DNA of 5,666 nucleotides from a bacterium (GTDB taxonomy: Bacteria; JAHJDO01), in assembly GCA_030652805.1 (NCBI GenBank), contig JAUSPT010000014.1, positions 1 through 5,666 of the forward strand, read 5' to 3'. This document shows, piece by piece, positions 683 to 5,047 of the stretch (the first letter of the stretch is position 1; every line of letters starts with the position of its first letter). The notes below the pieces were generated by a model. The model was not told where the DNA came from, made no database searches, and saw only the letters and a program-made list of their open reading frames with translations. Position numbers and translations under genes: made by a program.

Positions 683-723
683 GGACATTTCTATTTTGGC
701 CAAATAGGACATTATCATTTTGG
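683..723 (-). repeat. Two 17-bp subterminal direct repeats of the IS, with a TTTGGCCAAA palindrome
   Basis: Plus-strand 683-699 (GGACATTTCTATTTTGG) and 707-723 (GGACATTATCATTTTGG) match at 14 of 17 bases, spaced 24 bp start to start. The perfect palindrome TTTGGCCAAA at 695-704 sits across the end of the first copy. Repeats of this kind just inside an IS tip are usually transposase-binding sites; that role is inferred here. Confidence 0.65.
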
Positions 724-1068
724 TGTTACAGGCAAAGTATGCCCTTTTACTTTACCCTCCAGTTGATTTGGGCAAACAGGATTTTTACCTATAGGATTAA
801 TAATATACGCTTTAGTGCCGGATGGACACTCTAATTTTCCAGGAAGACACTCTGGAACTAAATCTTCCAGAGTACAATTAGCTCCATTCTCTCTCTTATT
901 GCTAGCTGCCCATTTCTGCTTTGCCCATACAATTTTCCTCATATTGGTTAAGCACGTTTCTTTCCTATAAGCTACCTGATCCTTAATATAACTAGGCACT
1001 GCCATTACACCCAAGAGTAAAATCACGGCTACAATAATAAGAAAATCTATTCTATCCAGTCTTTTCAT
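715..1068 (-). CDS. Small pseudopilin-like membrane protein, C-terminus probably altered by the IS
   Basis: This is a protein of 117 residues with one N-terminal hydrophobic helix (~8-26) ending in AVPSYI, then a soluble region. Helix position and the following helix with ETCLTNMRKIVWAKQKWA match type IV pilin/pseudopilin-like proteins of the short type common in uncultured bacteria. The signal is degenerate: aligned on the closing AVP, Asp8 replaces the usual Glu+5 and Arg3 stands where Gly-1 should be, so prepilin peptidase may not cut it. Five Cys residues (39, 65, 74, 81, 99) could form disulfides or bind metal. The gene starts with an ATGA overlap on the stop of the TPR-like gene, implying translational coupling. 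The last four residues (VTPK) and the stop appear to come from the IS; the native protein probably ended at or near GHTLP. Its role is unknown: minor pilin, secretion pseudopilin or an unrelated anchored protein. Confidence 0.72.
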   Translation of the reverse strand: MKRLDRIDFLIIVAVILLLGVMAVPSYIKDQVAYRKETCLTNMRKIVWAKQKWAASNKRENGANCTLEDLVPECLPGKLECPSGTKAYIINPIGKNPVCPNQLEGKVKGHTLPVTPK

Positions 1069-1802
1069 GGGTACATCTCATCCTTAACTGTTTCGCCCCC
1101 TTGTTCCATTTCAATATATTTTTTCATTTTCTTTATGTGTCTTTCTGCAACCTCAGATTGTGACCAATTTCCATATCCCTTTTTCTTAACAGATTCCCAT
1201 ATTTCCAAAGACTTTTGCCAGTTATGCTGCTTTGCATAGCTATGAGCAAGAATGTGAGAAACATACATTGGATGGTCTTTACACTGCCCAGCTAATGCGA
1301 AGTACTTAGCAGCTTCTGCATATAATTTCAACTTATGGTAATAAACCCAACCGCACTCAAAGAATAAATCATACTTATCTTGATTAAATTTTATGCCTTC
1401 TTTTAGTATATTAACATCTGCCCAATAGCATTTTTCTTTTATTTCAGGATCCTTTACAGCTGCACTGAGGTTATATCCGATATGCCATGCCCATAAAATC
1501 CATGCGTCAAGAAAATGCGGGTCAAGCCATGTAATTGTTCTGAAAATAGGAAACATTTTCTCTTGTTGCTGGTGATCCCAGTAGTAATCTATTCTAAGCC
1601 ACATTAAATCTACAACAATATCCTTAAAACCAAACAAAGTTGCTCCTAAAAATTCCCCTGCCGGAGCAGTAACTAGTTTTCGTTCTGGATGCAGCTCATC
1701 CAAATCCTTATCTATGCTCTTATGCAACGGAATGATTACAACCAGCAATATTAAAATAATAAGAAGAAATATGAAATGTATCTTTTGAGGTCTAAATTTC
1801 AT
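1065..1802 (-). CDS. Membrane-anchored TPR-like protein, function unknown
   Basis: This is a 245-residue protein. An uncleaved N-terminal membrane helix (~9-26) follows a basic start (MKFRPQK), and there is no lipobox, so it is a bitopic protein with its body outside the inner membrane. The rest is helical and rich in Trp, Tyr and His, with TPR-like pairs: ~85-115 (TWLDPHFLDAWILWAWHIGY), ~140-172 (DLFFECGWVYYHKLKLYAEAAKYFALA) and ~175-205 (SHILAHSYAKQHNWQKSLEIWE). The conserved-looking segment ~50-75 (FLGATLFGFKDIVVDLMWLR) precedes the repeats. It overlaps both neighbours by ATGA, 3' of the ABC permease and 5' of the pseudopilin, so the three are probably made in linked amounts. TPR folds bind proteins; a scaffold for the permease or the pseudopilin is a reasonable guess. 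I do not recognise a named family. Confidence 0.7.
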   Translation of the reverse strand: MKFRPQKIHFIFLLIILILLVVIIPLHKSIDKDLDELHPERKLVTAPAGEFLGATLFGFKDIVVDLMWLRIDYYWDHQQQEKMFPIFRTITWLDPHFLDAWILWAWHIGYNLSAAVKDPEIKEKCYWADVNILKEGIKFNQDKYDLFFECGWVYYHKLKLYAEAAKYFALAGQCKDHPMYVSHILAHSYAKQHNWQKSLEIWESVKKKGYGNWSQSEVAERHIKKMKKYIEMEQGGETVKDEMYP

Positions 1803-2557
1803 ACTTCTCTCTTTCTAAAAAATAATATGGCCAGAAGCGTAAATATTATTATATAGTTTAGCCCATAAACAGTAACTTTAAGTATGTGCAGGCCTGATAC
1901 TGCTGTGCCATGAACAATATCACGATTTATATTAAAATTACCAAAATTGGGTAAAAGGTAATAGGCTCCGTCAAGTACAAATTTCAATATAGCACTGCCT
2001 TTTGAGGCCAGATGTCTAAGATACTCAAATATATTTCCTACAATGTAGATAAATAGTGTTAAAGCTATACTTATCCACATGGTAGAAAATGTTGAAAACA
2101 TAATAGCAATAGAACTAAGTAGGGATAAACTGATAAAAATTAGAAACATAGCTTTGAATATTTCAAAATTCAGTACACGCTCCTTTAGATAAAGCACACT
2201 TAAAAACACACCAGTCATAAAACAGAGATTAATGAATAAGGCAAACATTGCGCCAGATAGCTTTCCTAAAATAAGCTCATATCTGTGAACTGGTTTAGAA
2301 AGCACCGCATATATTGTTTTTTTTCCCAGTTCTTCAGTAATTAATCTTGCTCCAAGAATAACCGCTATCAGCAGCCCAAAAATTGTTATAAAGAAAAACC
2401 CCATATCTTTAATCATTTTCATCTCTTCCCGCGGAGTAAAAAACGAAAACATCTTTGTGCTTCCAATAGTAACTAGAGCAAAGATCAACATAATGTTAAA
2501 CATCTTTCCTCTCAACGCTTCCTTAAAGGTATTTTTTGCAATTGCAATGATTCTCAT
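1799..2557 (-). CDS. ABC-2 type transporter permease (NosY-like)
   Basis: This is a 252-residue inner-membrane protein with about six hydrophobic segments (~20-36, 53-71, 102-124, 133-155, 157-178, 228-247). Between the second and third lies the ABC-2 coupling segment at 75-99 (EELGKKTIYAVLSKPVHRYE..LGK), the part that contacts the ATPase in this family, where the pattern is roughly E-x-GT-x-x-x-LLSKPV-R. Length and layout fit ABC2_membrane_2/NosY-like permeases, which export or insert unknown substrates. The start is supported by GGAG six bases upstream (minus strand, 2564-2567). No partner ATPase gene lies next to it; the upstream neighbour is bioD, 20 bp away. The ATPase must be encoded elsewhere or has been lost. 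The substrate cannot be told from the sequence. Confidence 0.85.
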   Translation of the reverse strand: MRIIAIAKNTFKEALRGKMFNIMLIFALVTIGSTKMFSFFTPREEMKMIKDMGFFFITIFGLLIAVILGARLITEELGKKTIYAVLSKPVHRYELILGKLSGAMFALFINLCFMTGVFLSVLYLKERVLNFEIFKAMFLIFISLSLLSSIAIMFSTFSTMWISIALTLFIYIVGNIFEYLRHLASKGSAILKFVLDGAYYLLPNFGNFNINRDIVHGTAVSGLHILKVTVYGLNYIIIFTLLAILFFRKREV

Positions 2558-2577: not shown

Positions 2578-4079
<1,502 letters not shown>

Positions 4080-4090
<11 letters not shown>

Positions 4091-4811
4091 AATCTCTCAA
4101 AAATCCATCCAATAAATTATTAAACTCCTCATGTTTTGTTACAAATGGAACATGCCCTGCACTCTCAAACGCATAAAGAACAGAATTTTTTATTTTGCTA
4201 TGCATGTAATCTGCACAGGCATAAGGACATATCATATCCCCTTTCCCATGAATTAGGAGAGTAGGAACTTTTATAGAGTGTAATTTATCTCTCAGGTCAC
4301 AATTTCTAAGTAATAGTAGGTTCTGTAACATTGTATTTTTGTTACATAGATTTGATGACTCCTTTATTAAATCCAAATCTTCTTTTTTAAAATCTGCATT
4401 CTTCAAAATAAGACTTGCAAAATTGCTTAACATTCTCACAGGTGATTTCCTGAACTTATTGATAAAGCTTTGCATGACAATGTGTGATATACCCGCATCA
4501 TAATCCTCCGAAGCAACAAATTTTGCAGGAGTGCTCACAAGAACAAGTTTTTTCACATACTCAGGGTATTGAAATGCAAAATTAATAGCAATCATGCCAC
4601 CCATTGACCAGCCTACAAGGTTAATGTTCTTTAATTTTAATTTTTTTATAACTCCAAGCAAATGTTCTGTATGTGCTCTCATACAGCCTCCTTTGAGAGA
4701 TACAGCAAGAGTCCTATAATTTTGCCTGAAATATTTGAGTTGATAATTCCAAATAGTTTTAGAAGTTCCCCAGCCAGGAATAAATAAAAGAGGAGGGCAT
4801 AAATTAGTCAT
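4080..4811 (-). CDS. bioH: BioH-like pimeloyl-ACP methyl ester esterase (alpha/beta hydrolase)
   Basis: BioH hydrolyses pimeloyl-ACP methyl ester once the chain has reached seven carbons, ending the BioC-started cycle. The protein is 243 residues with an alpha/beta-hydrolase fold: oxyanion-hole segment FIPGWG (10-15), nucleophile elbow GWSMG (67-71, Ser69), acid in LLIHGKGDMICP (Asp192) and His220 in SAGHVPFVTKHEEF. The PGWG motif, the CDLRDKL..IKVPTLLIHG stretch (171-189) and the GHxPF-xxH-EEF ending resemble BioH rather than other hydrolases. Residues ~110-165 form the helical cap. Direct overlap with bioC strengthens the call. An in-frame stop lies three codons upstream and there is no ATG/GTG/TTG soon after, so ATG 4811 is the only sensible start. 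It lacks a clear SD (see the promoter entry). Other non-homologous esterases (BioG, BioJ, BioK, BioV) can do this job; sequence features favour BioH. Confidence 0.85.
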
Positions 4812-4903: not shown

Positions 4904-5047
4904 TTATTTTTTACCCATTATCCGATACATACCTGTACCGCAGCACGGACAAACGCCTTTCATTGCTTTTCTGCCATTCTTCATTGTAACTTCCTTGGCA
5001 TCTTTCATTTCTTTCTTAGCCTTGCACTTCACACAATAAGCTTCCAT
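4904..5047 (-). CDS. DUF5679-type zinc-ribbon small protein, 47 residues
   Basis: This is a very small complete gene: ATG at 5047, stop TAA at 4904-4906. The protein opens MEAYCVKCKAKKEMKDAKEV and continues TMKNGRKAMKG-VCPCCG-TGMYRIMGKK. The pairs C5/C8 and C33/C36 form a four-Cys zinc ribbon (with an extra C35), and the central KEVTMKNGRKAMKG matches the conserved core I know as DUF5679. Members are tiny cytoplasmic proteins of unknown function, found in many phyla; nucleic-acid binding is plausible but unproven. A strong SD (AAGGAG, 5055-5060) lies 7 bases before the ATG, and a good promoter is further upstream. It seems to be its own transcription unit, ended by the inverted repeat before bioH. 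Confidence 0.88.
   Translation of the reverse strand: MEAYCVKCKAKKEMKDAKEVTMKNGRKAMKGVCPCCGTGMYRIMGKK

Follow-up and report, generated by a model that had tools for sequence, protein, structure and literature searches.

A PilGHI-like permease and TPR membrane protein coupled to a leaderless pilin derivative, with a candidate partner ATPase encoded in trans

The closest described counterparts of the genes analyzed here are PilG, PilH and PilI of Myxococcus xanthus, a system described in 1998 whose action, to our knowledge, is still open. According to one article, social motility, pilus assembly and PilA export all require PilGHI (MXAN_5782-5780; PMC3924187, citing Wu et al. 1998); a second describes it as essential for pilin translocation across the inner membrane (PMC3724824), and a third reports that it was once considered unique to the Myxococcus cluster (PMC6060248). 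The 5,666-nucleotide stretch of bacterial DNA that we analyzed (hereafter the window, from genome G000) carries three coupled genes for an ABC-2 permease, a TPR membrane protein and a pilin-like protein. The original prediction did not recognize this trio as a described system, but its permease and TPR protein constitute a divergent form of PilGHI. On balance, we favor the view that the trio represents a third paralogue of PilGHI, one whose ATPase is encoded in trans and to which an apparently non-cleavable pilin derivative has been added.

The gene string to which the trio belongs lies entirely on the minus strand. It starts with a BioH-like alpha/beta hydrolase gene (4080..4811; TIGR01738, 1.1e-38, under its cut-off), continues with genes for a BioC-like malonyl-ACP methyltransferase (3296..4090; TIGR02072, 1.6e-49, also under its cut-off) and BioD (2578..3315; TIGR00347, 2e-56) and, 20 bases further on, runs into the genes for the permease (1799..2557, 252 aa), the TPR protein (1065..1802, 245 aa) and the pilin-like protein (715..1068, 117 aa). 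As originally predicted, two ATGA overlaps (TCAT on the forward strand, at 1065-1068 and 1799-1802) join the last three frames. The same order, from bioH to the pilin-like gene, is found in three sister MAGs of the same genus (G002, G003 and G004), with the overlap between the TPR and pilin-like genes kept in three of the four trio genomes and replaced in G004 by 159 bases. Permease orthologues in the three sister genomes are 84-98% identical, and every gene tested shows purifying selection, with dN/dS of about 0.10-0.15 for the permease and TPR genes and 0.12-0.35 for the pilin-like gene. Given this repeated gene order and the low dN/dS, the trio is not a chance arrangement. A gene resembling mreB lies downstream of the trio in G003 and G004, followed in G003 by genes resembling mreC, mreD and PBP2 (all named from sequence reading). 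With bioH-bioC-bioD upstream and, in these two sisters, an mreB-like gene downstream, the trio is not placed next to pilA or pilD.

Two further genes were seen in the window. At the position of the mreB-like gene of G003 and G004, the minus strand carries an ISNCY-type-like transposase gene (1-639; NF033594, 220.6 bits against a cut-off of 250) that abuts the trio and runs off the window end. At 4904-5047, also on the minus strand, is the gene for a 47-aa protein with CxxC pairs, small and zinc-ribbon-like (MEAYCVKCKAKKEMKDAKEV...CPCCGTGMYRI).

Sequence comparison shows the permease to be a homologue of PilI, and the TPR protein one of PilG, in the Myxococcus-type PilGHI system. The permease, with six predicted TM helices, matches ABC2_membrane_2 (PF12679, 6e-13), as expected of the ABC-2 permease first proposed, and is homologous to the permeases that adjoin PilG and PilH. 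It has two paralogues in the same genome, where the permease-TPR pair occurs in two further copies (contigs C92 and C84), each immediately after an ATPase gene. The TPR protein received no name from Pfam or NCBIfam, and the prediction of a TPR-like membrane protein is borne out by its single N-terminal TM helix (about residues 8-30) and a TPR superhelix in its AlphaFold2 model (pLDDT 88), for which the best solved matches are TPR proteins (Foldseek, VIA-align). This is the architecture of PilG, an N-terminal TM helix followed by a TPR-like domain, and a PilG-type profile (A5) matches the protein at 2.4e-24, while hhalign of the window-type group (A3) against the PilG group (A5) gives 99.6%. 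The tree of TPR proteins groups the C92 paralogue with PilGs from pil clusters (SH-aLRT 98) and puts the window protein in a broader sister group; trees of the three genes have deep branches without support, and their congruence is weak. The profile and hhalign matches, the pil-cluster relatives and the TPR tree together lead us to regard the window pair as a divergent PilG/PilI paralogue. Its link to M. xanthus PilG itself is one of synteny. Members of the PilG profile are found in 71 of the 193 genomes sampled, as against the Myxococcus-only distribution once supposed (PMC6060248).

Both the TPR protein and the pilin-like protein carry positive charges at the N-terminus, ahead of the helix, from which the folded part of the former and the head of the latter are predicted to face the periplasm. 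A periplasmic TPR domain agrees with a homologue (L035:3807-5048) that carries a C-terminal PpiC peptidyl-prolyl isomerase domain (PF13616, 2e-25); close relatives of this protein in L055 and L073 are of about equal length and position. Many PilGs with pil-type neighbors have a C-terminal tail with a weak T2SSG match (10 of 23 members, best 0.0011), and the window protein is without this GspG-like tail. Small proteins that match the PilG tail only (G084, G126) were considered as pseudopilins and rejected, being short lipoprotein-like or single-TM proteins with no prepilin motif. Stand-alone proteins of this kind, bearing a PilG-type GspG-like tail, were seen at L242:678-1034 and L243:696-1034.

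The third gene product has one TM helix and four conserved cysteines (39, 65, 81 and 99). Generic models match only its pilin-type N-terminus, and weakly so (2e-4; type IV major pilin PilA, 0.0018), but its family profile (A4) finds pilins of its own genus and, in other phyla, intact pilins that align with residues 6-113 (3.5e-18). In an alignment with these pilins, the hydrophobic helix, the Cys positions, the CPxG-Y motif and the C-terminal HTLP are all conserved in the protein, and Pro22 is present as Pro25. What it has lost is the processing site: Arg/Lys3 stands at Gly(-1) and Asp8 at Glu5, charged residues occupy mature-pilin positions 2 and 3, and the sequence upstream of the start has hardly any open frame in three genomes, while in the fourth it contains no prepilin motif. 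Prepilin peptidase requires Gly(-1), and cleavage is therefore not expected. The degenerate pseudopilin of the original prediction is thus a pilin relative without the Gly(-1) cleavage site, but no match to T2SSG (PF08334) was obtained at E 0.1, and its homology is instead to ordinary small type IV pilins; on its sequence, "pilin derivative" describes the protein better than "type IV pilin". A comparison with the PilG tail by hhalign found the right motif at a probability of 2.4% and was set aside as evidence. The structure model, built from three sequences, is poor (pLDDT 44).

To place the trio among its relatives, we draw on a GTDB genome scan that yielded 80 named loci, the majority from Armatimonadota and Hydrogenedentota and a small number from other groups, Omnitrophota, Abyssobacteria and Poribacteria among them, of which the 68 with enough upstream sequence were scored for gene order. 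The order ATPase-permease-TPR was found in 67 of these, as at both paralogous G000 loci, and the remaining locus (L079) has the ATPase ahead of a permease with a split frame. The permease-TPR pair is therefore conserved and the full trio is adjacent in the three sister genomes, in line with the initial expectation, but the pilin-like gene was found solely in the window's genus and accompanies none of the 68 other scored loci. In those 68, moreover, the TPR gene is in no case followed by one for a small membrane protein, and it is in part for this reason that the pilin-like gene could be a mere operon neighbor, with a role separate from a transporter formed by the permease, the TPR protein and an ATPase encoded elsewhere. 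The missing overlap in G004 is also consistent with this explanation, which we nevertheless consider doubtful given the constant position of the gene in four genomes, its ATGA overlap in three and the purifying selection acting on it. A weaker argument is that the pilin-like gene could supply the GspG-like tail absent from the window PilG-like protein; the lack of that tail, together with the coupling of a pilin-derived protein, suggests that a pilin-like head may belong to the working transporter. We regard the trio as plausibly a single machine and a candidate complex.

A connection of this machine to pilins is plausible from its membership of the PilGHI family, from the third gene, whose product is a pilin derivative, and from the several PilG loci that have pilA or pilD as a neighbor. 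At L047, genes resembling pilC-pilS-pilR-pilA are followed by TPR-ATPase-permease and then by a prepilin-peptidase-like gene (names from sequence reading, with matches for the pilin and the response regulator). In the 9-Mb genome of L239, genes resembling pilQPONM, pilRS and pilD lie opposite pilA-TPR-ATPase, with the permease next (A-G-H-I); the pilin aligns with 4-213 of the 214 positions of NCBIfam PilA_Myxo at 185 bits, under the 400-bit cut-off. We take the M. xanthus order to be pilA-pilG-pilH-pilI-pilD, which the L047 and L239 layouts match. Pilin clients are also at hand, since the 2-Mb G000 genome, with about 10 T2SSE ATPase and 33 N_methyl (prepilin N-terminal) matches, is rich in type IV filament genes of several systems. 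From these sequence relationships, we infer a pilin-handling role for the trio. However, the window-type clade (mostly Armatimonadota and Hydrogenedentota) is rarely near pilin genes, and its substrate may differ. In that case, the trio would be a PilGHI-like transporter for a lipid, a glycan or another envelope protein, with the pilin derivative as a co-opted structural subunit. The majority of window-type loci do not adjoin pilin genes, among solved structures lipid-handling ABCA proteins and NosF come closest to the ATPase in sequence, and the operon runs into mreB-like genes in two sister genomes, all of which would fit such a transporter; the pilA-linked members of the PilGHI family and the pilin homology of the third gene argue against it, and we judge it unlikely.

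A second pilin link of the family was seen among the C84-type ATPase-permease-TPR paralogues of sister genomes, which share a contig with genuine GFTLVE pilins no more than a few kb away at L042 and L142 (G001 C18, G004 C115) and likewise at L183 with L140 (G002 C29).

As predicted, no ATP-binding ABC gene was found in the window by profile search, and none is present at the three sister trio loci, but this absence holds for the locus and not for the genome. A candidate for the partner ATPase that the prediction called for was found as an orphan PilH-type gene, conserved in trans, that lies between comM- and guaA-like genes in all four trio genomes (in the window's genome on contig C34; neighbors named from sequence reading). 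With the ATPase of L054, the trio's nearest relative locus, as the query, the orphan is the best match in each of G000, G002, G003 and G004, and no permease lies beside it. PilH-type ATPases are clearly separated from other ABC ATPases on the PilH profile (355 bits or more, versus 167 bits or less), and they match PilI-type permeases one for one, with three of each in G000, G002 and G004, two of each in G001 and one of each in G003. In trees of the ATPases, the orphan falls among relatives of the trio with weak support (SH-aLRT 86). We infer that the permease pairs with this orphan. Since the ATPases are homologous, with 42-51% identity to that of L054, the permease might instead be served by the one encoded at paralogous locus C92 or C84 while the orphan works elsewhere. 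This is improbable in view of the one-for-one counts and of G003, which has the trio and the orphan ATPase and neither paralogous locus. Conversely, neither the trio nor the orphan was found in G001, which retains both paralogous loci, an absence weakened by the 62% completeness of that genome. Finally, decay or misassembly of an operon that lost its ATPase, which the abutting transposase gene might bring to mind, can be dismissed given the same ATPase-free order in three other MAGs and the low dN/dS throughout the genes.

Returning to the trio as a third PilGHI paralogue, we propose a mechanism modelled on what is proposed for M. xanthus PilGHI. The PilI-like permease would pair with the PilH-type ATPase encoded at C34, and the PilG-like protein, held by its one TM helix, would extend its TPR scaffold into the periplasm. 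PilH would use ATP to power the permease and, with the scaffold as a relay, to act upon inner-membrane subunits of the pilin type. The pilin derivative, probably uncleavable by prepilin peptidase, would most likely not be polymerized and would instead reside in the membrane as a transporter subunit, either an adaptor or a client mimic. More tentatively, it is possible that a PilGHI-type transporter with its ATPase in trans has absorbed an uncleavable pilin as a permanent subunit, which would serve as a fixed adaptor or mimic in the sorting or priming of real pilins. In this one lineage a PilGHI module is tied directly to an apparently unprocessable homologue of pilins, and such a variant offers a way to ask whether pilins themselves are what the transporter acts on.

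The comparison with named systems summarizes both the kinship and the novelty of this locus. With M. xanthus PilG-PilH-PilI (TC 3.A.1.144.5; UniProt O30384-O30386) it shares an ABC-2 permease, a PilG-type TPR membrane protein, a PilH-type ATPase and a connection to pilins, whereas its ATPase is unlinked, it lies outside a pil cluster and behind biotin genes, and its PilG-like protein lacks the GspG-like tail while a pilin derivative has been added. With small type IV pilins (GFTLVEIMIVV...CPxGGxY...C...HxLP), the pilin derivative shares full-length homology, including the TM helix, the Cys positions and the C-terminal HTLP, but without a leader, and with Arg/Lys for Gly(-1) and Asp for Glu5, it is not a canonical prepilin. 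The paralogous loci C92 and C84 of the same genome contain the same module as the trio but are complete, an ATPase being encoded at each locus and no pilin derivative being coupled to it.
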